Assembly (NCBI GenBank): GCA_016838895.1
Contig: JAEKNU010000010.1
Span: 1-64,000 of the forward strand
From: Chloroflexota bacterium
Lineage (GTDB): Bacteria > Chloroflexota > Anaerolineae > Anaerolineales > Anaerolineaceae
DNA length: 64,000 bases
Direction of reading: 5' to 3'
Shown: positions 23,830 to 37,481 of the stretch, one piece after another
How the letters are laid out: each line of letters begins with the position of its first letter
How positions within the stretch are numbered: position 1 is the stretch's first letter
The notes under the pieces: generated by a model
Seen by the model: only the letters and a program-made list of their open reading frames with translations
Told to the model about the DNA's origin: nothing
The model's database searches: none
Position numbers and translations under genes: made by a program

Positions 23830-25545
23830 TTATACTTCGCGGATCGCATTGGCCTGAACACTTTCCATCAAATAAATACTTATCCCGCAAACCACCATCA
23901 GGATATTCGCCATTGCCAAAGCCTGTCCATAATTTAACGCACCAGGTTGGGACAAGTAGCGATATATCGCTACCGGGATAGTGGGGAATTCAGGTCTGGC
24001 CAGGAACGAGGTTGCACCAAACTCACCCAGTGAGATCGTAAAAGAGAAAATGGCTGCCACAAATGCCGCCCGAGCAATGATGGGGAAATCTACATGTTGC
24101 CAAACTTTCATTGGTGCTGCACCTAATACGGCTGCTGCATTCTTCAGGGAGCGTGGTACGCTTTGTATCGCTGGCAGCAAAGTGCGAATAACAAAAGGTA
24201 AAGCAACCAGACTATGAGCGATTGGCATCAATAAAGGAAAAGATCTCACATCCAGTGGTGGTTTATTGAATACCAGGATAAATCCGAGCCCCAGTGTTAC
24301 GGCAGATGTACCCAACGGCAACATTAATATCGGATCCAATATTTTATTGACCCATATTTTTTTACTCAATGCATATGCAGCCAGCAACCCGGTAAACAAT
24401 GATATTAATATCGTCACACCTGCATACAGCATGGAATTACGAACTGCAGCGATAGGTGGCACATAAAAAATGGAACTACGTGGATTCTGAAATAAACTGG
24501 CATAATAATCAATGGTGATGCCCGTGTCAACAATGGTTCGTTGTCCCCGTTCAGCTTCAAGCCGCGTAAAAGATCGGACTGATAAAGCCGCCAGCGGCGT
24601 AACTAACAAGGTGAATAGTAAAAATACCATTATCCAGACAAACAACTTTTGACGGATCGTTCGGGCACTGCGTTGTTCTTCATCTAACACGCGAGGTTGA
24701 GTTTGATACGCGGATTTGCGAACCAATCTGGAATATACGATTGTGAGGATTAACGTAAATCCTAATTGAATAGCTGATAATAATCCGGCCAAAGGAAGAT
24801 TTAGCATGTGCATGGCCTGAATATATATCTCGACTTCCATAGTAGCATACGCTGGACCGCCCAACAGTAAAACCACACCAAAACTGGTGAAGTCGAAAAG
24901 GAAGACTAATAATGCTGCCGCCAGAATGGGTGTTTTTAATAGCGGAAAAGTTACCTTCCACCAGGTTTTCCAGGCTGATGCACCAAGTGAGCGAGCTGCA
25001 TGCTCCAATTGAGGGTCTAATTGTTCCCAGGCGCTGCCAACCATTCGTAAAATCACCGATGTATTATAAAAAATGTGTGCCAGTACAATGGCAGCTAATG
25101 TGTTCAATATGCGAATGGGTGCATCATCCAGATCAAAAAATCCCATCAAAAAGTAATTTAGTAATCCTTTCGGCCCTAACAAAGCATTGAAACTGGCTGC
25201 GACAACAACAGTAGGCATTATAAACGGAATGGTACTGGCAGCTTTTAATAACTTCTTTCCCTTGAATTTGAAGCGTGAAAAAAGAAATGCGCCTGGCAGG
25301 CCGATTAACAAAGTAAAAAACATAGAAATAAATGCTTGTGTAAATGTAAAATGGATGGATCGCCAAACCCGTTGCCAATTGGCTGAAGAAAACGGTGAAT
25401 CAAGCGCCTGTACCACTGTGATTTCGAAAATTTCCTTTAGGGGAATAAAAAAGAAAACAACAAAGAATAGAATAGGAATCACCCATAATAATCCCGCGGA
25501 CCATATGGGTGATTTCTTTTTATACTGAGGAAGTGTGCTGTTCAT
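23830..25545 (-). CDS. Two-domain ABC permease, thiamine/iron type (ThiP/FbpB-like)
   Basis: A 571-residue permease made of two fused halves, about 12 helices. Each half has an EAA loop that docks on the ATPase: the first at EHAARSLGASAWKTWWKVTFP, the second at KNAAAVLGAAPMKVWQHVDFP. This two-in-one layout is typical of ThiP and FbpB. It is separated from the ATPase gene by about 20 nt and from the binding protein gene by 8 nt. Confidence 0.9.
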   Translation of the reverse strand: MNSTLPQYKKKSPIWSAGLLWVIPILFFVVFFFIPLKEIFEITVVQALDSPFSSANWQRVWRSIHFTFTQAFISMFFTLLIGLPGAFLFSRFKFKGKKLLKAASTIPFIMPTVVVAASFNALLGPKGLLNYFLMGFFDLDDAPIRILNTLAAIVLAHIFYNTSVILRMVGSAWEQLDPQLEHAARSLGASAWKTWWKVTFPLLKTPILAAALLVFLFDFTSFGVVLLLGGPAYATMEVEIYIQAMHMLNLPLAGLLSAIQLGFTLILTIVYSRLVRKSAYQTQPRVLDEEQRSARTIRQKLFVWIMVFLLFTLLVTPLAALSVRSFTRLEAERGQRTIVDTGITIDYYASLFQNPRSSIFYVPPIAAVRNSMLYAGVTILISLFTGLLAAYALSKKIWVNKILDPILMLPLGTSAVTLGLGFILVFNKPPLDVRSFPLLMPIAHSLVALPFVIRTLLPAIQSVPRSLKNAAAVLGAAPMKVWQHVDFPIIARAAFVAAIFSFTISLGEFGATSFLARPEFPTIPVAIYRYLSQPGALNYGQALAMANILMVVCGISIYLMESVQANAIREV

Positions 25546-25553
25546 TCTGTTAT

Positions 25554-26615
25554 CTACCTTAGCATGGTGCTATCCCAAATCTCCAGCCAGGCTTCCCGAT
25601 TTTCTGCAATCTGATCAGGCTCCAGGTTGGCTGGCATATCAGGTGATTGTGTGTGCATGTCAAATTCTTCAGGCAGTGCTGCATTCTGATTTACTGGATT
25701 TACAAACATTTGCATTGGCAGGTCTTCTTGCATAGGAACATCCAAAGCAAAATCAACAAACTTTTCTGCCATGCTGCGGTTTTCTGTCCCTGCCAGAATA
25801 CCGATGAACTCAATTTGGCGGAAACACATTTGATCCCCCACCAAAGAGGCTGTGGGCGCTTCCGTCAACACTGTTTCAGCGAATATCACTTCCGCTGCCG
25901 GGCTCGTGCCATAAGAAACCACCATGGGTTGTGCACCTTGTCCTGAGGAGCCGCTAAAGTTCGTATAATAAGCTGTTTCCCAGTCATTGACAATGTGCAC
26001 TTCATTTGCCTTTAATGCCTCCCAAAAGGTCGGGAAATCGTCCCCATAAGCGGAAATTGTAGCCAGCAAGAACGCCAGGCCAGGCGAGGAGGTCACTGGA
26101 TTCTCAACTACCAACAAGCCTTTGTACTCTTCCAGGGTTAAGTCATCCAAGGTTTGGGGAATGGCCAGCTCATTTTCGATGAAGTAAGCTTTATCGTAAT
26201 TGATACAAACATCGCCATAATCCATAGGCAATGCCCCATTTGAAGCATCCAATTTGAACGCTTCAGGTATTTCTGCTAGTTTTGGGGAAGCATAAGGTTC
26301 AAAAATACCGGCATCTACTGCTCTGGAAAGAAAAGTATTATCTACGCCATAGAATACATCTGCAATTGGGGTATCCTTGGTTAAGACAGCGCGATTTAGC
26401 GCTGCACCGGTATCACCGCTTTTTATAAATTCAACTTTTACATTGTTTTGCGTTTCGAATTGTGCAATGACATCTTCGCTGATGGCAAAAGAATCATGAG
26501 TCATCACAGTGAGCGTTTGCACGTCAGAACTTGTTTGCTCAGTCCCTTTACAGCCACTGAGCATAAATAAGCCCACAAGAAATACTACATTGAATACGAT
26601 AAATCTTTTTTTCAT
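25554..26615 (-). CDS. Thiamine-type ABC substrate-binding lipoprotein (TbpA/ThiB-like)
   Basis: A 353-residue binding lipoprotein, lipobox MLSGC. The mature part starts LTVMTHDSFAIS, then ADVFYGVDNTFLSRAVDAG and LPMDYGDVCINYDK, closely patterned on thiamine-binding TbpA/ThiB. Start ATG 26615 behind GGAG rather than the GTG at 26624. The operon begins with thiamine diphosphokinase and a TPP riboswitch, which supports thiamine over iron as ligand. Confidence 0.88.
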   Translation of the reverse strand: MKKRFIVFNVVFLVGLFMLSGCKGTEQTSSDVQTLTVMTHDSFAISEDVIAQFETQNNVKVEFIKSGDTGAALNRAVLTKDTPIADVFYGVDNTFLSRAVDAGIFEPYASPKLAEIPEAFKLDASNGALPMDYGDVCINYDKAYFIENELAIPQTLDDLTLEEYKGLLVVENPVTSSPGLAFLLATISAYGDDFPTFWEALKANEVHIVNDWETAYYTNFSGSSGQGAQPMVVSYGTSPAAEVIFAETVLTEAPTASLVGDQMCFRQIEFIGILAGTENRSMAEKFVDFALDVPMQEDLPMQMFVNPVNQNAALPEEFDMHTQSPDMPANLEPDQIAENREAWLEIWDSTMLR

Positions 26616-26658
26616 TTTGAACACTCCTTCATAGTTTCCGAAGTTGTGCTCGGCGAGA

Positions 26659-27309
26659 TCATTTTCCCTGGCGTGTGTGTATACACAATAAGTGTCCTCC
26701 CTTTATTTCTATCTCAGCAGTTTCTGATAACATAACATTGCTGATACCCCGGGTTTGATGGATATACAAATCTTCATCATTTAATGGATATGCCAATTGA
26801 TGCGTGCGAACTCCCTGTACAACAGGCTGCAATGGAATTAGCGAGATGATATCTCCTGGCTTGCCATCAATTATTTGTCTTCGACGAATTAAGCACACTT
26901 CCTCTTTGCCATCATCAAAACGAACATCTAAATCATGCAATCTTGGATCCAGCAAAATGAAACTATTCGCCAAAGTCTGGTCAAGCCGACCACCCAATGC
27001 AGCAACAATTCGTATTTTTGCACACTTTTCCAACAAGGCAAAAGATAAAGCCAATTCAAAATCAGTTTCATCCTTCGCAATCGGGTATTGCAAAATGCGA
27101 GTATGTTGTTCTTCCGCCCAGATTCGTTCCGTGGGAGAAATCGAATCCAGATCACCAATTAATATATCCGGGGGGATTTCAGCCAGATGGAAATAATGTA
27201 ATCCACCATCCACTGCAATTTTTAACCAGGCAGGAGTATTAAAGGATGCAAGGAAGTCAGGATCATGGAGTTCACCATTCAGCACCAAAACTGCTTGTTT
27301 ATCATCCAT
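26659..27309 (-). CDS. thiN: Thiamine diphosphokinase
   Basis: A 216-residue enzyme that turns thiamine into thiamine diphosphate with ATP. Seen: KIAVDGGLHYF, PDILIGDLDSIS, AKDETDFELALSFA and ALGGRLDQTLAN, the full active-site set. Start at ATG 27309; the track's upstream start (27348) lies in riboswitch-linked leader and is rejected. The SD, AGAGGG, sits in a hairpin just before the ATG. First gene of the thiamine import operon, so imported thiamine is activated at once. Confidence 0.92.
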   Translation of the reverse strand: MDDKQAVLVLNGELHDPDFLASFNTPAWLKIAVDGGLHYFHLAEIPPDILIGDLDSISPTERIWAEEQHTRILQYPIAKDETDFELALSFALLEKCAKIRIVAALGGRLDQTLANSFILLDPRLHDLDVRFDDGKEEVCLIRRRQIIDGKPGDIISLIPLQPVVQGVRTHQLAYPLNDEDLYIHQTRGISNVMLSETAEIEIKGGHLLCIHTRQGK

Positions 27310-27314
27310 AAGAA

Positions 27315-27337
27315 ATACCCTCTGCCGTAGAGGGTAT
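27315..27337 (-). promoter_or_regulatory. SD-sequestering hairpin, TPP riboswitch expression platform
   Basis: On the minus strand ATACCCTCT pairs with AGAGGGTAT across a 5-nt loop. The second arm holds the ribosome site (AGAGGG) of thiN, 5 nt before its ATG. No T run follows, so translation rather than termination is likely to be controlled. Confidence 0.7.
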
Positions 27338-27357
27338 AGAAGAGACACGCCAAGTGT

Positions 27358-27544: not shown

Positions 27545-28597
27545 TTACTGTGCCTGATATTCAATAACTGCATACTCAGGACAATCCCAAATGGTCAATT
27601 CAAATGTACCAGTACCATTTGCAGGCAATGAGTCTTCCTCAATAAATCCCCATTCAGCTGCAACCAATTTTCCATTCTCATCATACAAACTGGCAACAAT
27701 GTTTACATAGGTATGTTCGATATCAGTTTCATTTTTCACAGTACCGGTGAAAATAACACTGTAATCATCCTGTGTTACCTCAACACCACCTACAGTAATC
27801 ATGGGAGCATCTTCAGCAGCAATTGAACTTTGAACAATTAATGCATACTCTGTATCCGATCCCCAATTCTGACTCATATACATCTTAAACGGCGATTTTC
27901 CACCAGCAGGAATGATATCCAGCATGGAATACGTACTCACTACATCAATTAAGATGTCGTTTTGATCGTATAAACTGCTGGCTACATGTACCCACTCCAT
28001 GGGTTGATCAGAGGTGTTTTCAATTTCGCCAATGATGGTCATGTTATATTCATCCAGAATAGCAGTATCATATACAATTTCTAATCCTGAAGGGATCTCT
28101 TCATCAGATTCATACCATTCATCCACAACAATTTCATAGCTTGCAAAATTATTCAGATTTTCAGAGCTAAAATAAAATGGAACATCTTTTCCAGGAGGTA
28201 AAAGAGATAACTGTGGATAAATCGACTCAGTGGCAATGATTTTGCCATCACCATCAAATAAAATCATTGAAATATCTACACTGGAAACAACAACGTCCAT
28301 ATTATTGCGGACGTGCCCTACAAAGGTTACCCAGCCGTCCGAATCATAATGGTTGACATTATATACTTCTATATCTCCGCCTGTTGTCCCATTTTTAATG
28401 GCAGGTTCAGGCGCTTCATTTTCCATGGGCACTGGTTCTTCAATTTTTTCAGCAGGTTGGATATCAACAGTACTTACCTCATTCTCTGTATTTTCCGGTA
28501 GAAAATTTTTCAAACCGGGTGCCCCACAAGTACACGACATTGTAAATATGATTATTAATGGAAGAAAAATCAATCGTTTTTTTTCTCTTTTCATCAT
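27545..28597 (-). CDS. Lipoprotein with three FxLYD-type beta repeats
   Basis: A 350-residue lipoprotein; lipobox FTMSC, then an acidic Pro-rich linker. Three repeats of about 90 residues follow, each with a strand like TFVGHVRNN, then ILFDGDGKII, SSLYDQNDIL or ASLYDENGKL, and a closing LPxG turn. These match FxLYD domains, surface beta-sandwiches of unknown role. Start ATG behind AAAGGA. It lies 60 nt after the last gene of the signalling operon and may belong to it. A strong terminator follows. Confidence 0.7.
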   Translation of the reverse strand: MMKREKKRLIFLPLIIIFTMSCTCGAPGLKNFLPENTENEVSTVDIQPAEKIEEPVPMENEAPEPAIKNGTTGGDIEVYNVNHYDSDGWVTFVGHVRNNMDVVVSSVDISMILFDGDGKIIATESIYPQLSLLPPGKDVPFYFSSENLNNFASYEIVVDEWYESDEEIPSGLEIVYDTAILDEYNMTIIGEIENTSDQPMEWVHVASSLYDQNDILIDVVSTYSMLDIIPAGGKSPFKMYMSQNWGSDTEYALIVQSSIAAEDAPMITVGGVEVTQDDYSVIFTGTVKNETDIEHTYVNIVASLYDENGKLVAAEWGFIEEDSLPANGTGTFELTIWDCPEYAVIEYQAQ

Positions 28598-28657: not shown

Positions 28658-29449
28658 TCAGCGTACGCGGCGAATCCACTTATCTTTCAGGGTAATATTT
28701 CGTGGACTTACCTCTTTTTCCAGCATCAGGAAATCCACCAACAATCTGGAAAATTTACTACTATCTTCCAGCATGGGATAATGCCCACCTCCCTCAATTA
28801 ATATGCCGTGCATATGATCTTCTAGTACAAGAAATCGTCGTTCTGATGGACTTACAATTGCCTGATCCTGGACACCATGTACAAATAAACTACGATGTTG
28901 ACCAACTTTCCATAAATTGATCAAATCCATCTGCTTTACTTCCTGCAATGAGACCCGTAACGATTGCAGATCGATTTTGTGTATTTCTTCCAATACAAAG
29001 TGAGCATCTTCATCTTTATCCAACAACCAATTTACTAAGTCATATGGTGTATCTTCAAACAAGCGCTCATTTAATGAAGTGTCAGACATCGGACAAGAGA
29101 CTAAAAACAAACGATCAACACTATGATAATATTGCTTGGCAAAATTCATGGCGATTACAGCACCAAGACCATGCCCCACTATAGCCACTTTTTCAAGCTT
29201 CATTTGAGTTAAGAATTTAGCAATTAATCTTGTCTGATCCTGAATACTATAAGCACGTTTGTTCCTGGCTGTATCTCCGAACCCCCACAAATCAACTGCA
29301 ATCGTCTTATAATTTAATGATGAAACAATCTGCATGGCTGGCATCCAGTATCGCCAGGTACCTAACCAATCATGAAGAAATAAAACAGGGCGACCGTGAC
29401 CCATCACTTCATAATGGCATACTTCATTATCGATGACAACTCCACTCAT
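28658..29449 (-). CDS. Alpha/beta-hydrolase fold protein lacking the nucleophile Ser
   Basis: A 263-residue alpha/beta-hydrolase. The fold is clear: VLFLHDWLGTWRYW, VDLWGFGDT, and a C-terminal GGGHYPMLED with the catalytic His. At the nucleophile elbow it reads VGHGLGA, residue 94 being Gly where the enzyme family has Ser. So it is probably a non-catalytic binding or signalling form. Its relative at 32184-32981 in the same operon keeps the Ser. The ATG overlaps the TGA of the receiver gene by 4 nt. Confidence 0.82.
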   Translation of the reverse strand: MSGVVIDNEVCHYEVMGHGRPVLFLHDWLGTWRYWMPAMQIVSSLNYKTIAVDLWGFGDTARNKRAYSIQDQTRLIAKFLTQMKLEKVAIVGHGLGAVIAMNFAKQYYHSVDRLFLVSCPMSDTSLNERLFEDTPYDLVNWLLDKDEDAHFVLEEIHKIDLQSLRVSLQEVKQMDLINLWKVGQHRSLFVHGVQDQAIVSPSERRFLVLEDHMHGILIEGGGHYPMLEDSSKFSRLLVDFLMLEKEVSPRNITLKDKWIRRVR

Positions 29450-29832
29450 AGTACACTCCCTGCTCCATTTGTATTAACCAATTCATTTATTTTTGATATC
29501 AGGTATAAAAAGTCAAACGGTTTTTCAATCACTGTGTCTACACCTAATGAGCGACTTGTAGCAAGCTCTGATTGCTCAATTTTTGCAGAAATAAAAATCA
29601 CTGGTGTCTGTTTTATGGATGGGGTTTGACGGATTTTTTCGCAAACTTCAAATCCGTTCAGATGTGGCATAGTAATATCCAGTAAAACAATATCAGGATT
29701 TTCTTGTATTGTCTTATCCAGGGCATCCTGCCCATCAAATGCTTCAACAACTTCCATTTGTTGAAGCCGTAAAGCCATTGCAATCAGCTTACGAATGTCA
29801 ACATCATCTTCGGCAACCAATACAACGGTCAT
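29446..29832 (-). CDS. Single-domain response regulator (CheY-like)
   Basis: A 128-residue receiver. Acidic pocket EDD (8-10), phospho-acceptor Asp at 52 in VLLDITMPHLNG, and Lys in VIEKPFD are all in place, so it should be phosphorylatable. No output domain. It sits between the receiver-GGDEF-like gene and the Gly-elbow hydrolase, overlapping the latter by 4 nt. No histidine kinase in the window. Confidence 0.88.
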   Translation of the reverse strand: MTVVLVAEDDVDIRKLIAMALRLQQMEVVEAFDGQDALDKTIQENPDIVLLDITMPHLNGFEVCEKIRQTPSIKQTPVIFISAKIEQSELATSRSLGVDTVIEKPFDFLYLISKINELVNTNGAGSVL

Positions 29833-29860
29833 TTTTCCAGCCTTGGATCATTGTGTAGTG

Positions 29861-30751
29861 TTATGCGGCGGCTGCTTTCTTCCTTTCGTCAGCAGCAATT
29901 TCGGTAATTTCCCTGATATCAGCAAAACGATATTGCGATGGAGAAACCGTTCCAATAGATAACGTCATCAGATTATGTTGTTCTTCCTCGCCATTTTTCT
30001 CCAACATCATAAATCCCTGATCCCGATCAGTGAAATTATAATACGTTGCGATATCCTTATTGAAACGCGCCAGCAGTTCTGTGTATACAGTTTGCATGAC
30101 GTCTTCCTGAGTAATTATCACAAAATTTTCACCACCAGCATGACCGACAAAATCATCAACGCTGCCAAATTCATTGCAAACCTCTTGCATGGTCATGGCG
30201 ATAAAACGTAGTACATCAGACGCGGCCAAAAAGCCATATTTCTCTTTAAAAGATTGGTATTCATTTATATGAATATCCATGAAACTCCAGCCACTTGTTT
30301 TAATGACCTGGCGCAAGTAATCTTCAATTATTCGTACGGATGGTAAACGGGATTGAGCATCAGTGAAACTTTCTCGTTCACTGCGATTTAGAGCATTTTG
30401 AATGCGTAATTGTAATTCTTCAATATCAAAAGGCTTCGTAATATAATCATCTGCACCCATCTCTAAACCTTGCAGTTTGTCTTTACGGTCATTCTTTTGA
30501 GTCAGGAAAATAATGGGGACAAACTTTGTGCGAAAATTGTGACGAAGTCGTCTGCACACTTCATAACCATCGATATCAGGTAAAATAATATCAAGAATAA
30601 TTAAATCAGGCGGATTTTCAATTGCTTTTGCTACTGCATCTTCTCCGCGAGAAGTGATCGTAACCCCATATTGCTTCCGATCAAAATATATTTGTAACAT
30701 TGATACAATATCAGGTTCATCATCAACGATCATTAATCTTACATTTTCCAT
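29861..30751 (-). CDS. Receiver plus degenerate GGDEF domain protein
   Basis: A 296-residue two-domain protein. Residues 1-120 are a full receiver (DDE at 10-12, Asp 54 in LIILDIILPD, Lys in YITKPFD). Residues 140-290 have the diguanylate cyclase fold, but the signature loop reads AGGENFVII where active enzymes have GG[DE]EF. The metal and catalytic acidic residue is in doubt, so it may bind GTP or act only as a scaffold. It is part of the GTPase operon. Confidence 0.8.
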   Translation of the reverse strand: MENVRLMIVDDEPDIVSMLQIYFDRKQYGVTITSRGEDAVAKAIENPPDLIILDIILPDIDGYEVCRRLRHNFRTKFVPIIFLTQKNDRKDKLQGLEMGADDYITKPFDIEELQLRIQNALNRSERESFTDAQSRLPSVRIIEDYLRQVIKTSGWSFMDIHINEYQSFKEKYGFLAASDVLRFIAMTMQEVCNEFGSVDDFVGHAGGENFVIITQEDVMQTVYTELLARFNKDIATYYNFTDRDQGFMMLEKNGEEEQHNLMTLSIGTVSPSQYRFADIREITEIAADERKKAAAA

Positions 30752-30802
30752 GCAGCCTCCATCCAGATTTTACCAATGAAATTCAAGAACACCGCGATAA
30801 TT

Positions 30803-32083
30803 TTACCAACTCTCATCCACCATCTCACCCATACGCGGGTATAATCGACGATGTTGACCTTTTGCTGGTAATCCGTGGTGATCGGATTCTTCATAAGTTA
30901 CATCTTTATCAATAACAGGTCGGTCTCTTGAAGCAATCAAGACTACATCCGATTCAATTGTTCGTGCCGGGTAAACAATAATACCTGAACCAATTCGACA
31001 ATTATGTCCAACACAACCACCTAAAACCGGACGATTGGAATCTGACAATTTTCCACTGCCATCCAAAGCCCTAATCTGATCTGAAAGTAGGTTGAAATCA
31101 GTAAATGTTGTGCCCGCTCCAACAAATGAATTTCGTCCAATAATGCACATTTGTAAACAGGCATTTTGCGCAACCATGGCATTATCCATGAGTGTCGTCA
31201 TAAACAGAGAAGCGCGGAAAGGTAAAAAAGTACCATCACAGACCACACTGAGCATCAATTGGCAGCCCTGTGAAATATTAACATTATCCCCGATAATACA
31301 ATTTTCAATCACCGCGCCAGCGTTAATCGTTACATTGTCACCAATGCTGGTGGGACCATGAATGATCGCACTGGGGTCTATAATACAATTTTTTCCAATC
31401 GTCACTAGAGCAGAACTATCCAGCACCTGTTTACCTTCAAAAATAGCTCTTGCGACAACTTTCAGTTTAAAAATCACCTCATTATTAATGCGGCTCTCAA
31501 ATCGAGCTCCCCTGCCGAATAAACCAAACACCATATCGGCAATAAACAAATGCACCCAGGAATCAATGGCCATCATACTGCGTAGTGGGACATAATAAAT
31601 CAGATCCCCCACTTGCGTAGCCATATAAGTCGGCACGTGATAGTAGCCAATCTCTCTCGCCTGCAAATCAATGATTAATGGCTCAACCTCGTCATCGACT
31701 GGACCATTAGGGTAATACCACAAATCGGCGAAATATAAATCGTCTTTCTTTGTATAGGAACTGGAAAGTGGCAGACAATGTTCCCGGAAAGCGGGATCAT
31801 CCAATGAAAATGCTGCTCTTACAGGATTATTTTGTTTCGTCGCTTCTGTTAAAAAAGCTTCAATGTATTGCATATCAAAAAACAAATTATCTCGATATAC
31901 AATGCTGGGTTCTTTTACACGAGGTATTTTCTCGCCTTCAGGAATTTCCATTTCTCGCCGGACAAAGGGTGTGAAAGCATCCCGTTGATGTAACCATAAA
32001 GGTTTATTCTGAATACGGAGATCACGTGCCGGCTCATTGAACGGTGTTATTTGTTTAGTAGATTGCAAAATAATTTTTAGCAT
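30803..32083 (-). CDS. Left-handed beta-helix (hexapeptide repeat) protein
   Basis: A 426-residue protein. Roughly residues 1-190 have no recognised domain. Residues 220-395 are hexapeptide repeats of the GlmU/LpxA type: IGKNCIIDPSAIIHG, IGDNVTINAGAVIENCIIGDNV, IGRNSFVGAGTTFTDF, VGHNCRIGSGIIVYPA. Such domains are acyl- or nucleotidyl-transferase parts, but the N-terminal nucleotidyltransferase motif is absent. It is in the operon with the Cvn-type GTPase; its substrate is unknown. Confidence 0.65.
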   Translation of the reverse strand: MLKIILQSTKQITPFNEPARDLRIQNKPLWLHQRDAFTPFVRREMEIPEGEKIPRVKEPSIVYRDNLFFDMQYIEAFLTEATKQNNPVRAAFSLDDPAFREHCLPLSSSYTKKDDLYFADLWYYPNGPVDDEVEPLIIDLQAREIGYYHVPTYMATQVGDLIYYVPLRSMMAIDSWVHLFIADMVFGLFGRGARFESRINNEVIFKLKVVARAIFEGKQVLDSSALVTIGKNCIIDPSAIIHGPTSIGDNVTINAGAVIENCIIGDNVNISQGCQLMLSVVCDGTFLPFRASLFMTTLMDNAMVAQNACLQMCIIGRNSFVGAGTTFTDFNLLSDQIRALDGSGKLSDSNRPVLGGCVGHNCRIGSGIIVYPARTIESDVVLIASRDRPVIDKDVTYEESDHHGLPAKGQHRRLYPRMGEMVDESW

Positions 32084-32183
32084 GAAAAATCCTCGTTTCC
32101 ATTAGATCAAAAAACCCAACCTTCTATAAAGGAAGGATGTGATGAAAGTAAAGCTATATTATTTACTTGTCCATGCATATTGG

Positions 32184-32981
32184 TCAGGATGCGGTTGTTT
32201 CGTCCTGTAGAAAATCGAAAATCTTTTCTTTAAAAGCTTTAGGTTCATCCAACATAATGAAGTGACCAGCTTTCTTGAATATTTCGATTCGTGAATGGGG
32301 GATTCCTTGTTGAAGGACTTTCCATTGATTCGGATTAACGATAATATCCCGCAGACCAAACATGCCCATAACCGGTAATTGCACCTGGGTTATTTCTTTA
32401 CGAATATCCCAGCGATGCAATGACGAAATGCTGCGAAAGAAAGAATCCATAGTGGTTTTTGATAAATCACGATCCATCATTTCAGGGAAATCTTCACCAC
32501 GGCTAATCAACGGTGAAGCTGCTTTCATACCCATGCGGAATAATCCCATTGAACTGAATAATAGACGGGCAATTGGAGGAATACCAGCTAACTTGAGGGC
32601 TAATGCTAACGATGAACCGACAATCGGCGATCCAATAATGACGACTTTATCCACCCGATCAGGGAATTGGCAGGCATAAGATAAACTAACCGTGCCCCCC
32701 ATACTATGACCAATTAACGGCGCACTGGCAATTCCCATCTGATCCATGAATTGCCGAACCATTAAAATAAAATCTTGAACTTGAAAAGTGGAATTCTGTT
32801 TACCGGAGTCACCAAAACCCCAGAAGTCAAGGGCATACGTGCGGTAGGATTGACCGAGGCTGGCCATTACATCCTGCCATAAGCCCCACGTACCCAACCA
32901 GCCATGCAGCAGGATAACAGGTTTCCCTCTGCCATAAACTTCGTAATGTAAAACCCCTTGAGCAGTAGTAATGGATGACAA
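32184..32981 (-). CDS. Alpha/beta hydrolase with intact Ser-Asp-His triad
   Basis: A 265-residue hydrolase close in layout to the one at 28658: shared VILLHGWLGTWGLW and LDFWGFGDSG. Here the elbow is LIGHSMGG with Ser 93. An Asp (GLRDIIV) and a His (AGHFIMLDEP) complete the triad. The likely start is TTG 32981 behind GAGGAG. Esters or lactones are the usual substrates, but none is indicated. It follows the GTPase gene by about 30 nt. Confidence 0.85.
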   Translation of the reverse strand: MSSITTAQGVLHYEVYGRGKPVILLHGWLGTWGLWQDVMASLGQSYRTYALDFWGFGDSGKQNSTFQVQDFILMVRQFMDQMGIASAPLIGHSMGGTVSLSYACQFPDRVDKVVIIGSPIVGSSLALALKLAGIPPIARLLFSSMGLFRMGMKAASPLISRGEDFPEMMDRDLSKTTMDSFFRSISSLHRWDIRKEITQVQLPVMGMFGLRDIIVNPNQWKVLQQGIPHSRIEIFKKAGHFIMLDEPKAFKEKIFDFLQDETTAS

Positions 32982-33012
32982 TGCGGATGCTCCTCAGACT
33001 AACTTATTAAGT

Positions 33013-33546
33013 CTAGCCTTCTTCCATTTCAGAAAGGATGCTATATAAAAGCTCTAATAATACATTTTTAACAGATTCTTTATCAATGGCAACACAGGGT
33101 AAAAATTTGATATTCTGATCCAAGCGCAGAGCTAAGCGCATATCTTCCAGATCCCAGGCATCAGGCAGGTCTTGTTTATTCGCTGCAACAACATATGGGG
33201 TAGGGGAATAAGCTCTGAAAGTCTCTAATATCATTCTGGCTTCGCGGAAAGTTTCAGGACGATTGCTGTCAACAATCACTATAAAACCTAACATCCCTTC
33301 AGAGAGAATTTCCCACATGAAGTCAAAGCGTTTCTGTCCAGGCGTACCGAATAGGTACAACACCAGATCTTCATCCACTGTTATACGTCCAAAATCCATG
33401 GCAACAGTGGTCGAGTCTTTTACCTTTTCCTTAGCAGATGATATCTTCTTCTCAGTAGAGACAACATCAATCTCACTTACAGATTGGATAAACTCTGTTT
33501 TGCCTGCATTAAATGGCCCAGTAACAACGATTTTTACCGTTTGCAT
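33013..33546 (-). CDS. CvnD-type small GTPase (COG2229)
   Basis: A 177-residue Ras-like GTPase. G1 GPFNAGKT (10-17), the family stretch VAMDFGRITVDEDLVLYLFGTPGQ with G3 at 67-71, and G4 NKQD (123-126). This is the pattern of CvnD, the GTPase of Streptomyces conservons. The start is ATG 33546, not the TTG at 33564. It lies 24 nt after the DUF4388 gene. No roadblock protein (CvnB) or sensor kinase is in the window, so the partner set differs from a canonical conservon. Confidence 0.88.
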   Translation of the reverse strand: MQTVKIVVTGPFNAGKTEFIQSVSEIDVVSTEKKISSAKEKVKDSTTVAMDFGRITVDEDLVLYLFGTPGQKRFDFMWEILSEGMLGFIVIVDSNRPETFREARMILETFRAYSPTPYVVAANKQDLPDAWDLEDMRLALRLDQNIKFLPCVAIDKESVKNVLLELLYSILSEMEEG

Positions 33547-33570
33547 CAAATATATGCCCTTCAATATAAA

Positions 33571-34386
33571 TTAGATTGATCGGATCCTTTTTACAATCCG
33601 GTTCAATAATGTTTTTTGTTCCGCTTTATCATTTGTCGGGAACATCGGTCCAACTGCCTTACGCTGTTGAATTTCCGGTCGAACCAGTTCCACCAATCCC
33701 GCTTGCAACAACCCATAAACAACACGTCTAATTTGAGCATCATTCATTTTTGCAGCCTTGGCAATTTGGGCGATGGTATTCTTCGGGCTGACATAAGAAA
33801 CAACCTGCCATTCTTCCACACTCAAATTAATATCCCGTATGTTTGTTCCCGGACGATCCGTGAAGCGCATGGTCATATCCAAACTGGGAATCTCATCCTG
33901 AAGCTGTTCAATGGCTTTCAATTCTCTTGATGCTTCAATAATTAAATTTTCAAGGTCTATACGTACCGTAATTTTGTCTTCTGGCGGAAGAGAAACCATG
34001 TCAAAGTAAAACCCACCCTCAAACCAGGAGAATGTTTCACGCACATGGTTCACAAAGTGATTTTGCAAACTGGAGATAATATCACTTTGTGTAAGGTAAC
34101 CTGCATTAATCAATAATAAGCCCAACTCCTTATCCTTGAGGTTATCAGAGCGTTGCTTTAAGATACGATATTGATTCGCTGTAATTTTTCTATTCTGCTG
34201 TAAAATGCCGGCTAAACTATTATCTCGGTCGTCGATTTGCGAGTATGCCAACTTACCTTCTTTGAAAGTGATCAAGGCTTTATGTCGGGCTGTCTCGATG
34301 ATCATCGTCCCGGTTTTTTTGGCAAGGTTTACAAGCGTTAATAATTGTGTAATCGAAAAATCTTGTAGCTTACCCTGTAACGCCAT
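33571..34386 (-). CDS. DUF4388 (PATAN) protein with C-terminal winged helix
   Basis: A 271-residue protein. The N-terminal DUF4388/PATAN domain starts LQGKLQDFSITQLLTLVNLAKKTGTM, typical of signalling proteins paired with GTPases and receivers. The C-terminal 70 residues resemble a winged helix: EWQVVSYVSPKNTIAQIAK and RRVVYGLLQAGLVELV. First gene of a run of seven on the minus strand, directly ahead of the GTPase. By analogy, it may be the scaffold or output of the GTPase switch. DNA binding is uncertain. Confidence 0.8.
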   Translation of the reverse strand: MALQGKLQDFSITQLLTLVNLAKKTGTMIIETARHKALITFKEGKLAYSQIDDRDNSLAGILQQNRKITANQYRILKQRSDNLKDKELGLLLINAGYLTQSDIISSLQNHFVNHVRETFSWFEGGFYFDMVSLPPEDKITVRIDLENLIIEASRELKAIEQLQDEIPSLDMTMRFTDRPGTNIRDINLSVEEWQVVSYVSPKNTIAQIAKAAKMNDAQIRRVVYGLLQAGLVELVRPEIQQRKAVGPMFPTNDKAEQKTLLNRIVKRIRSI

Positions 34387-34608
34387 ACGTTATTCCTTTA
34401 TTTACCAGAAAAATAATAGTACGTGTTTGATTATACATCCAAGAGGTATACCAGTCAATTAATTGTGCAATGCAATAATAGCTGCTCCACCGATTAAAAA
34501 AACCAGTGTAACGGTGAAATCAATTCAGTTTCTCTTTATCTATAAGTATATGATAACATTAAGAATTCCTTTTAATTTAACCCTTGCAAATCTGTTGAGT
34601 TGTTATTA

Positions 34609-36267
34609 ATGCCAGATATTCGTCAATCATTACAGGGAAAAGACATACAATTCTTACAGCAAATCGCTGCGATTTGGGGCATTGAGCTGCAGGCCAATGA
34701 TTTGCGTTCTACAATACAACAATTAGCTGCTGAGATGGATCAGAAAGAGCAATTCCTGGAAATAATCGAGGCTTTCTCCGAAGAGAGCAGAAATGCTCTG
34801 CTTGAGTTAGCTCAGACTGATGGAAAACTCCCCTGGACGTTGTTTCTGCGAAAGTATGGTGACATCCGTGTAATGGGGGTAGCTCGCCGTGAGAGAGAAC
34901 GGCCCAATCTTCATCCTGCAAACGCTACTGAGGTCTTATGGTACAGTGGTTTGCTCAGTAAAGCCTTCTTCAATATTCAAAAAGAACCCCTGGAATATGC
35001 TTATCTGCCGGATGAATTTTTCCATTTTTTATCACAGCAGGAACCACCAATACATGCGCCTCATCTACCCGGTAGACCAGCTACATCATCTGAGAAAGCA
35101 AAGCTCATACCAGCAAATGATCACATTCTGGATCATATGACCACCTTGCTAGCTTCCATCCGTACCGGGCAGCCAATTGATTCAATTCCATGGAATAATA
35201 AACACATACCTGTTGCATTTTTATTGCAAATTGCACAAAGCACCCATTTACTTGATGAAAATAATACTATTCAACCTGCTCAGGTTCGTCAATTTATGGA
35301 AAGTGACCGTGCAGACGCATTATTAACCCTGGCAAATGGCTGGTTAAGTAATACATTCAATGATTTACGCCAACTACCCGGTTTCGTATTCGAGGGTCCC
35401 TGGCAGAATCAGCCCGATGAAACCAGGCAATACCTGCTTGCGGAATTATCAAGTATTCCAAAACAAACCTGGTGGAGCTTTTCAGCATTTCTCTCCTATA
35501 TCAAACAAAACAACCCAGATTTTCAACGTCCAGCTGGTGATTATGATTCATGGTATATTCGCCGCAATCATAGTGAAGATTATTTGCGTGGTATCCAACA
35601 CTGGGATGAAATCGATGGTGCACTAATCCGCAGAATCATTTGCCAGCATATGCATTGGTTGGGATTAACGGATCTGGGAACCACAACCTCTTCATCGCTA
35701 ATCAGCGCATTTCGATTCTCGGCGTGGGCTGAAAATCTTTTATCGAATATTGCGCCAGACGGACTGCGCAAGGAACAGGGAGAATTTAAGGTGCTTACAG
35801 ATGGCACCATTCAAGTTCCAAGCCAAGTCTCCAGAGCTATCCGTTATCAGGTGGCACGTTTTTGTCATCTGCTTCAGGAAACGGATAGCGGATATAAATA
35901 TCAAATCCAACCTGATTCTTTATCCAGCGCACTAAAAGCAGGACTTAAAATTGAGCAATTTATCAACCTTTTACAAAAATCCGCGCAAAAACCAATACCA
36001 CCATCCATTTTCAATTTACTTGATAATTGGAAAAATGATGGTGTGCAGGTCAGCTTTGCACCTGTGATGTTGTTAACAACCAAAGATCCGCACATCATTA
36101 ATCATCTGCTTTCATCCAGAGCCAGGAAATATTTGGGCGAACGTCTCAATGAATACACAATTTTAATAAACGAAAAGCAAATAAAACTGGTGATGTCTAT
36201 CCTGACAGAGTTAGGATATTTATCCAACGTGCAAACCACAGGGTTGGTTAAAATAAGAAAAGAATAG
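34609..36267 (+). CDS. Helicase-associated (XPB/Ssl2 N-terminal-like) domain protein, no motor
   Basis: A 552-residue protein without Walker motifs. The C-terminal 90 residues ([21 protein letters not shown]...[12 protein letters not shown]) fit the XPB/Ssl2 N-terminal, Helicase_C_3 type domain seen as a separate protein next to bacterial XPB-like helicases. The N-terminal part has [12 protein letters not shown] and [14 protein letters not shown], also of that family. Start ATG 34609 rather than the TTG at 34600. No helicase gene is next to it. Divergent from the signalling operon. Confidence 0.6.
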
Positions 36268-36299
36268 CATTCAAAAATAAATGGTCTAAAGGACATACA

Positions 36300-37481
36300 A
36301 TGAGCGATCAATTGAAGTGGATTCAGGAAGAGCTTGATCAGTTGAAATCGGCTGGCTTATATAACACCATCCGCACCATCAACACACCCCAAGGTGCCTG
36401 GCTGCGTGTGGATGGAAAAGATGTGCTCAATTTTTGTTCAAATAACTACCTCGGGTTAGGTAACAATTCCGAAATGATTGCTGCCATGAAAAAAGCGGCC
36501 GATCAATATGGTGTTGGACCAGCTGCAGTACGCACCATTGCCGGTACCATGGATATTCATCTGGAGCTGGAAAAAAGAATGGCAGCATTTAAAGGGGTAG
36601 AAGATGCCGTTACTTTCCAATCCGGGTTCTGCGCCAATCTTGCCACCCTGCCAGCGCTGGTTGGCAAGCAAGATGTAATTTATTCTGATGAATTAAATCA
36701 TGCCAGCATTATTGATGGTTCGCGTTTGTCCGGCGCCAAAATTATCCGCTTTGCCCACGCTGACGCCAGAGACCTTCTGCAGAAAATAACTGAAAATCAG
36801 GCAAATTTCCGCCGCGGATTAATTGTCACAGATGGAGTTTTCAGTATGGATGGCGATATCGCCCCATTGGATCAAATTTATGAAGTTGCGCAAGCAACCG
36901 GCACGATTTTAATGGTAGATGACGCCCACGGTGAAGGGGTATTAGGCAAAGGTGGCCGTGGCATTGTCGATCACTTCAACTTGCACGGCAAAGTTGATGT
37001 AGAAATTGGCACCATGTCCAAAGCATTTGGTGTGGTTGGCGGTGTGGTTGCCGGTAAAAAAGTCATCATCGATTGGCTGCGTCAACGCGGGCGCCCGTTT
37101 CTATTCTCCTCAGCCGTTACCCCGGCAGATGTGGCAGCCTGCATTACCGCTATTGATATTCTGGAACGCTCCACTGAACTGGTTGATCGTTTGTGGGAGA
37201 ATGCCAAATATTTCAAAAATATTCTAAAAACAATGGGCTTTGATATTGGCATCAGTACCACACCGATAACGCCCGTTATGCTGGGTGAAGCACCGTTGGC
37301 GCAACAATTCAGCCGCGAGCTTTATGATGAAAGCATCTTCGCTATGGCATTGGGTTTTCCCACTGTTCCGCGAGGCAAAGCCCGTATCCGTGTGATGATC
37401 TCAGCAGCCCACTCTGTGGATGACCTGGATCAGGGTCTGGCTGCCTTTGAAAAAGTTGGTAAAAAACTTGGCGTAATCTAA
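36300..37481 (+). CDS. kbl: 2-amino-3-ketobutyrate CoA ligase (glycine C-acetyltransferase)
   Basis: A 393-residue alpha-oxoamine synthase that cleaves 2-amino-3-ketobutyrate with CoA to glycine and acetyl-CoA in threonine breakdown. Seen: [51 protein letters not shown] and the PLP Lys in TMSKAFG. Length is exactly family size. No threonine dehydrogenase is adjacent, so 8-amino-7-oxononanoate synthase (BioF) remains a possible alternative. Confidence 0.85.

Follow-up and report, generated by a model that had tools for sequence, protein, structure and literature searches.

Seven minus-strand genes of a Chloroflexota bacterium (assembly GCA_016838895.1) appear to form a reduced copy of a signaling module conserved in this phylum, in which a two-component system and a small GTPase would be linked to a signal of hydrophobic or acyl nature. 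We hold this reading with about even confidence. Gene content, gene order, co-occurrence, and the intact or lost catalytic residues of the module were observed directly. The stretch analyzed, hereafter the window, comprises the first 64,000 nucleotides of contig JAEKNU010000010.1. A sequence-only reading had placed seven genes with short gaps at 28658–34386, and both the ORF coordinates and the Pfam domains bore it out. The features are as follows:

34430..34458, minus strand: TTGACT-17-TATAAT, candidate promoter some 44 bases in front of the PATAN gene (11/12 matches)
33571..34386, minus strand: PATAN/DUF4388 protein with a C-terminal winged-helix-like region, 271 aa (PF14332, E 5.8e-19)
33013..33564, minus strand: MglA-family small GTPase, 183 aa (PF03029, 1.1e-20; Ras, 1.7e-10)
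32184..32981, minus strand: alpha/beta hydrolase 1, HydC, with GHSMGG (Abhydrolase_1, PF00561, 1.1e-30)
32084..32183, minus strand: 100-base gap, site of the V4R gene in relatives (58/66 related loci)
30803..32083, minus strand: LbH, putative degenerate nucleotidyltransferase plus left-handed beta-helix, 426 aa (Hexapep, 2.2e-14)
29861..30751, minus strand: response regulator with a degenerate GGDEF domain (Response_reg, 7e-29; GGDEF, 1.6e-8)
29833..29860, minus strand: 28-base junction, site of the giant multi-GAF histidine kinase in relatives
29446..29832, minus strand: single-domain response regulator (PF00072, 2.3e-26)
28658..29449, minus strand: alpha/beta hydrolase 2, HydG, with GHGLG (PF00561, 9.9e-14)

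Successive genes, from first to last, are separated by 6, 31, 100, 51, and 28 bases, except for the final pair, which share a 4-base overlap. TTGACT-17-TATAAT is the best sigma-70-like site of the region, in which promoter-like sites occur at chance level (27 found vs. 23.9 ± 5.1 expected), with no excess of internal promoters. The 5-bp hairpin with a T-rich tail in the HydC–LbH gap (32136–32120) is likewise not above chance.

The order PATAN–GTPase–HydC–LbH was found in 66 of the 69 related loci with enough flanking sequence, and the receiver/GGDEF regulator lies downstream of LbH in 65 of 70 loci. As it recurs in dozens of genomes, this gene order is far beyond chance. Among 399 genomes of the phylum, the GTPase is present in 74 and LbH in 69, all nested within the 74; these co-occurrence counts share ancestry, and p-values derived from them overstate independence. 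Co-inheritance of the module genes is strongly supported. The hydrolases and the beta-helix gene are conserved beside the GTPase and travel with it in distant Chloroflexota, in line with the recurrent system that the sequence-only reading had proposed. In more distant families, LbH is not linked to the GTPase gene. Other classes carry V4R–LbH–regulator–kinase or LbH–regulator–kinase apart from PATAN–GTPase, and several of them have a HydG-type gene. The window species, Thermanaerothrix, and Anaerolinea thermolimosa are each devoid of some parts, which argues that no single accessory gene is essential.

The full operon reads PATAN–GTPase–HydC–V4R–LbH–(acyl-ACP reductase)–receiver/degenerate GGDEF–giant multi-GAF histidine kinase–receiver–HydG. 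An unlinked second operon encodes an MglB-like roadblock protein and another V4R protein, joined in relatives by a further receiver/GGDEF-like protein. We infer the protein contacts, the ligand, the direction of the signal, and the transcriptional output of the module as follows. The kinase and the receivers would feed the signal to the GTPase, whose nucleotide state would be controlled by the roadblock/V4R pair. V4R and HydG may bind a hydrophobic, probably acyl-derived ligand, made or removed by HydC and the reductase. The GTP-bound GTPase would then act through PATAN, with its winged helix probably on transcription, and through LbH as a scaffold.

The two hydrolases differ at the nucleophile, as had been noted from the sequence. 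In HydC (GHSMGG), the triad Ser93-Asp212-His240 is conserved in 95 of 95 aligned sequences, and this intact triad predicts an active hydrolase. In HydG, the Ser is replaced by a Gly (GHGLG), with Asp195 and His223 kept. The same position is Gly in 25 of 27 orthologs, including those of Chloroflexia, Ser in one, and Ala in one. Judged by these residues, HydG is a conserved pseudo-hydrolase. The best folds matched by the AlphaFold model of LbH (pLDDT 83) are ST0452, GMPPA/GMPPB, and GlmU. LbH has the two-domain fold of these proteins but not their GxGTR nucleotide-binding loop, which was found neither at its N terminus (MLKIILQSTKQITPF) nor in 119 aligned rows; His360 and Asp329 are invariant (119/119). 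From sequence and model, LbH can be described as a degenerate GlmU/GMPP-type nucleotidyltransferase, and, being devoid of the loop, it probably either is a pseudo-enzyme or acts solely as a transferase.

Most Anaerolineales loci harbor in the operon an acyl-ACP-reductase-like gene, with the catalytic Cys present in 67 of 67 sequences. Its product is similar to PigE and to the cyanobacterial AAR, which are acyl-thioester reductases. It aligns with the cyanobacterial acyl-ACP reductase and the N-terminal domain of PigE over most of its length, but scores below the curated TIGR04058 cut-off. No match was found in the window's own genome, nor in its family within the sample, and in other classes the reductase is not a stand-alone gene of the operon. 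The reductase, the HydC triad, and the V4R proteins described below give weight to the link with acyl or ester chemistry suggested by the sequence-only reading. The genes might also form a lipid-metabolism operon, with HydC, the reductase, and LbH producing or recycling an acylated or fatty-aldehyde-derived compound, and the role of the GTPase, receivers, and kinase confined to the control of its expression. The frequency of the reductase gene in Anaerolineales, the intact triad, and the GlmU-type fold of LbH all fit such an operon. However, the family of the window has no reductase, other classes have none as a separate gene of this operon, two of the "enzymes" look non-catalytic since LbH has no nucleotide-binding loop and HydG no nucleophile, and the most constant members are signaling proteins. 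We therefore regard a lipid-metabolism operon as unlikely.

In 58 of 66 related loci, a V4R gene lies between HydC and LbH. All 16 members searched match PF02830 at E up to 0.1, not all of them above the Pfam cut-off; the Cys pattern of the zinc site is conserved, and a distant similarity to MJ1460 and MopR was detected. In the window genome, the MglB-like roadblock gene is located on another contig (C34), where it adjoins another V4R gene. This adjacency is shared by ten relatives. A roadblock domain was identified in 19 of 19 tested genomes with the GTPase and in none of the three without it, and it is linked to the GTPase in four loci (L034, L085, L092, and L093). In L034 (family f24), PATAN–GTPase–roadblock–roadblock–V4R–LbH–HydC form one run, which ties the two operons together. 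The Anaerolineales roadblock ortholog was found in 127 of the 130 genomes with HydG. Since it is more common than HydG (203 vs. 130 of 250 genomes), it may also serve other GTPases.

V4R is a prokaryotic relative of Bet3, a subunit of TRAPP, whose eukaryotic core consists of a longin pair flanked by Bet3-type subunits and acts as the GEF for Rab (PMC2253512; PMC10933270). The likeness to TRAPP is here one of gene adjacency alone, a V4R gene adjoining a roadblock gene and also a Ras-like GTPase gene, and the GTPase is a bacterial one, of the MglA family and not a Rab. As a speculative and rather improbable extension of the preferred signaling module, the roadblock/V4R proteins and the GTPase could be the bacterial counterpart of the TRAPP–Rab pair, with an acyl-loaded complex as exchange factor or GAP and the active/dead hydrolase pair setting or reading the ligand.

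All G motifs of the GTPase are intact (GPFNAGKT, TTVAMDFG, GTPGQ, and NKQD) and invariant or nearly so in an alignment of 98 sequences. In these sequences, G3 reads GTPGQ and a Thr replaces the Group 1 Arg in G2, the combination that distinguishes MglA Groups 2–5. By its motifs, the GTPase is thus of the MglA family, GTPGQ/TT type, and its sequence appears most like Group 5, which has been reported from Chloroflexi (Wuichet and Soegaard-Andersen, PMC4316618). Few branches are supported in the 23-row tree; the Chloroflexi taxonomy and PATAN neighbor fit Group 5. With members such as the Thermus plasmid set DUF4388-GTPase-roadblock-protoglobin, the module has in common GTPGQ, a TT where Group 1 has its Arg, an immediately upstream PATAN gene, and a roadblock partner, but in Anaerolineae the roadblock gene is unlinked, and V4R, LbH, the two hydrolases, the reductase, and the giant kinase are absent from the text of that paper (PMC4316618).

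A Ras-like GTPase, a roadblock protein, and links to response regulators also characterize the MglA–MglB systems (Group 1) of Myxococcus and Thermus, and the genes might belong to a polarity or surface-motility module of this type, controlling type IV pili or gliding. It would suit such a module that an MglA-family GTPase has its roadblock partner elsewhere in the genome. In cyanobacteria, PATAN proteins have a role in type IV pilus control. In Myxococcus, response regulators bind MglA (PMC4316618). However, the Chloroflexota GTPase has neither the Group 1 Arg finger nor TVPGQ, and of 47 genomes tested only one yielded PilT, in a search whose control was positive in known genomes. A motility module thus seems improbable.

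The receiver/GGDEF protein has an intact phospho-acceptor, Asp54 (101/101). Its GGDEF signature is degenerate, GGENF in the window and mostly GG[D/E]NF in relatives (N at the fourth position in 82/101), and does not conform to the GG[D/E]EF of diguanylate cyclases. In every related locus that contains this regulator and extends past it, a giant ORF comes next, encoding in relatives a kinase with HisKA, HATPase, and five to seven GAF domains. The single-domain receiver follows, between the kinase and HydG, at the same place as in the window. That HydG and the lone receiver are additions specific to the window was considered and rejected: in longer loci of relatives, both are present some 10 kb downstream, on the far side of the giant kinase.

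The window genome is the only one devoid of the kinase among the close kin checked; all eight loci examined in its family (L237–L244) keep it. As synteny is retained down to the thiamine genes, we attribute the absence of the kinase and of the operon V4R to deletions in the window genome. A draft assembly might also hide the two genes in a species that has the full operon. The presence of the kinase in all eight family loci and the state of the genome (162 contigs, 5.7% contamination) would allow this. However, both junctions are clean, with ORF ends and starts intact, the genome is 99% complete, and its other contigs gave no match to the N-terminal part of the kinase, only general kinase-domain or GAF matches. 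We judge such an artifact very unlikely. If the module is indeed reduced in this species, its receivers must either depend on a different kinase or work with none.

A true conservon (CvnA–D; Group 2) with swapped partners is highly improbable: it would likewise unite a histidine kinase, a roadblock protein, and an MglA-family GTPase with GTPGQ, but no operon protein matched DUF742 (CvnC), the three CvnD compared form a separate clade (support 100/99) devoid of the NKxD that the window GTPase keeps as NKQD, identity is 39–42% to them versus 42–44% to Group-5-like GTPases of Thermus and Deinococcus, the kinase, a giant multi-GAF protein, is missing from the window and lies farther downstream in its relatives, the roadblock gene is unlinked, and PATAN, V4R, LbH, and hydrolases are found instead. 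The sequence-only reading had taken the GTPase for a CvnD with replaced partners; this identification is abandoned, as are the replacements, the roadblock protein being encoded elsewhere beside V4R and the kinase being the usual neighbor in relatives, lost here.

No description of the full gene set was found in literature on DUF4388 with GTPases, V4R with roadblock proteins, or Chloroflexi MglA, and the module looks like an undescribed signaling system. The novelty does not extend to PATAN adjoining MglA-family GTPases, already reported (PMC4316618). Apart from those of Myxococcus, Thermus, and Streptomyces, bacterial Ras-like small GTPases have hardly been studied, and this module names concrete candidate partners. 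Across much of a deep phylum, it ties a GTPase to a kinase, a roadblock protein, V4R, a predicted pair of active and dead hydrolases, and a putative pseudo-nucleotidyltransferase, and offers a bacterial setting for examining the origin of TRAPP-like GTPase control.

The PATAN gene adjoins the GTPase gene in nearly every locus, Chloroflexia and Thermus included, and its product is probably the direct partner of the GTPase. Its DUF4388 domain was as first read (5.8e-19). Support is weak for the winged helix and hence for a transcriptional output: MarR_2 matched below cut-off (E 0.0039), and in searches with the structure model (pLDDT 84) MarR-type winged helices, like NPRL2/NPRL3 of GATOR1, gave weak, non-significant matches that were not used as evidence. 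In distant families, the PATAN–GTPase pair is adjoined by mnmA and DUF1385, which are conserved and housekeeping-like.

The seven open reading frames claimed by the sequence-only reading lie at the places, on the strand and in the order it gave, and its domain assignments were upheld. The window lies on contig C49 of a 4.95-Mb genome in 162 contigs. Besides a DUF4388 protein (PATAN), a GTPase, a single receiver and a degenerate nucleotidyltransferase with a left-handed beta-helix (LbH), the set encodes:

32184-32981, minus strand: alpha/beta hydrolase HydC, with a GHSMGG motif
28658-29449, minus strand: alpha/beta hydrolase HydG, with a GHGLG motif
29861-30751, minus strand: receiver/GGDEF protein, with GGENF in its GGDEF domain

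Among named relatives, the LbH search put Levilinea, Ornatilinea, Longilinea, Anaerolinea, and their kin nearest, which places the genome in or near the Anaerolineaceae. Among 399 sampled Chloroflexota genomes, LbH was found in 69 and the GTPase in 74, and all 69 LbH genomes are within those 74 (hypergeometric p ~5e-72, assuming independent genomes, which these are not). Their absences coincide as well: within the window's family, seven sampled genomes have neither gene. An LbH profile search of the GTDB genome set gave 510 relatives, of which the best 80 were retrieved; counts over these 80 loci are not fully independent, as two (L110 and L111) share one contig and some duplicate genomes of the 399-genome sample. 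The order PATAN-GTPase-HydC-LbH on one strand is conserved in 66 of the 69 loci with enough upstream sequence, with HydC and LbH separated by a V4R gene in 58 of these 66. Where downstream sequence suffices (70 loci), the receiver/GGDEF gene is present in 65 and is preceded by an acyl-ACP-reductase-like gene in 48. Inheritance of these genes as a single module is strongly supported and very probable. The L110 and L111 loci of Levilinea saccharolytica (NZ_LGCM01000042.1) are two operon copies in opposite orientation, ~15 kb apart, representing either an inverted duplication or an assembly artefact. One genome (G150) retains PATAN and LbH and carries a GTPase homolog with degenerate motifs, ALPGG replacing GTPGQ (L095:9704-10213).

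Every related locus with the receiver/GGDEF gene and any further sequence shows a giant open frame directly 3' of it, in Anaerolineae and more distant families alike. In three fully read loci, this frame encodes a histidine kinase that carries five to seven GAF domains and is 1,644-1,800 aa long. A single receiver and then HydG follow the kinase in relatives, and most compared genomes of the order have HydG on the strand of LbH, ~10 kb further downstream. As gene order and the thiamine genes found beyond HydG in the window match those of several relatives, the window is syntenic with its relatives but lacks V4R (a 100-base gap remains), the kinase (a 28-base gap remains), and the reductase. 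The reductase is absent from the window's whole family as sampled; the kinase is retained in all eight examined loci of that family (L237-L244). A search of the rest of the window genome gave no ortholog of the kinase: no match spans its N-terminal part.

Next after HydG, across a gap of 61 bases, comes a gene for an FxLYD/DUF3426-type secreted protein (27545-28597, minus strand), with the region's best terminator (27524-27504) beyond it. The secreted-protein gene may have been added to the operon locally, since in the relatives checked the thiamine pyrophosphokinase-like gene is mostly nearer to HydG than in the window. That gene, with those of an ABC substrate-binding protein and a permease, occupies 23830-27348 (minus strand); the trio recurs behind HydG in several relatives, so synteny extends past the seven-gene set. 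Upstream, a divergent pair (34600-37481, plus strand) encodes a 555-aa Helicase_C_3-domain protein and a 2-amino-3-ketobutyrate CoA ligase-like protein, and is found in the same opposite orientation in many loci of the window's family.

The GTPase belongs to the MglA family, its closest solved structures being MglA; it carries the signature of Groups 2-5 (PMC4316618), and its G1, TT, GTPGQ, and NKQD motifs are practically invariant. It shares 42-44% identity with Thermus/Deinococcus GTPases, one of which adjoins DUF4388 and roadblock genes, and 39-42% with CvnD proteins, which lack NKxD. The proposed comparison with conservons holds as an analogy (kinase, roadblock, GTPase) but not as membership. 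PATAN genes beside Group 1 and Group 5 MglA-family genes were already reported (PMC4316618); a limited literature search found no paper on the gene set described here.

The roadblock partner, which the sequence-only reading took to be replaced, is in fact present: contig C34 of the window genome has a roadblock gene with a V4R gene after it. This pair occurs in ten relatives, mostly followed by a receiver/GGDEF gene, with V4R on the opposite strand in one. Roadblock domains were found in 19/19 tested genomes with the GTPase and 0/3 without it, and an ortholog of the C34 roadblock in 127 of the 130 genomes of the order having HydG, the three exceptions being incomplete bins. One locus of family f24 (L034) groups PATAN, GTPase, two roadblocks, V4R, LbH, and HydC in a single run, and in families f16 and f82 a roadblock adjoins the GTPase, which unites the two operons as one system. 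The V4R proteins match PF02830 in 16/16 members (E up to 0.1, not all above the Pfam cut-off), conserve a Cys zinc site, and are distantly similar to the V4R protein MJ1460 and to MopR. V4R is a known relative of TRAPP Bet3 (PMC2253512), and earlier work in Asgard archaea dealt with roadblock/TRAPPC3/GTPase proteins (PMC10933270).

HydC, a general alpha/beta hydrolase, keeps its catalytic triad in 95/95 sequences. HydG has Gly at the nucleophile position in 25 of 27 orthologs, distant families included, with Asp and His retained, which suggests a pseudo-hydrolase by design and not by decay. The LbH model (pLDDT 83) best matches the folds of ST0452, GMPPA/GMPPB, and GlmU; its nucleotide loop is lost, and His360 and Asp329 are invariant. 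In the receiver/GGDEF protein, the receiver is intact and the GGDEF domain degenerate, making cyclic-di-GMP synthesis unlikely. The reductase of relatives resembles PigE and cyanobacterial acyl-ACP reductase, with the catalytic Cys in 67/67. It is a stand-alone gene in Anaerolineae; in distant Chloroflexota genomes (e.g., G166 and G118) a reductase-like domain lies within open frames of ~690-780 aa.

Judging from the protein families, the module probably constitutes a two-component/GTPase signalling pathway. V4R, the hydrolase pair, and the reductase hint at a signal that could be hydrophobic or acyl-derived, a tentative reading. Transcriptional output through PATAN is weakly indicated and rather doubtful. 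An output through pili is disfavoured, PilT being found in just 1 of 47 tested genomes.

A 2.5-kb stretch elsewhere in the window genome (C107:2504-4979) holds both a roadblock gene and a second small GTPase-like gene, which is diverged (22% identity); the two are perhaps another GTPase-roadblock system. A Thermus plasmid carries a DUF4388-GTPase-roadblock-protoglobin run (L232:4372-6501), in which a sensor-type protein again adjoins the roadblock gene.
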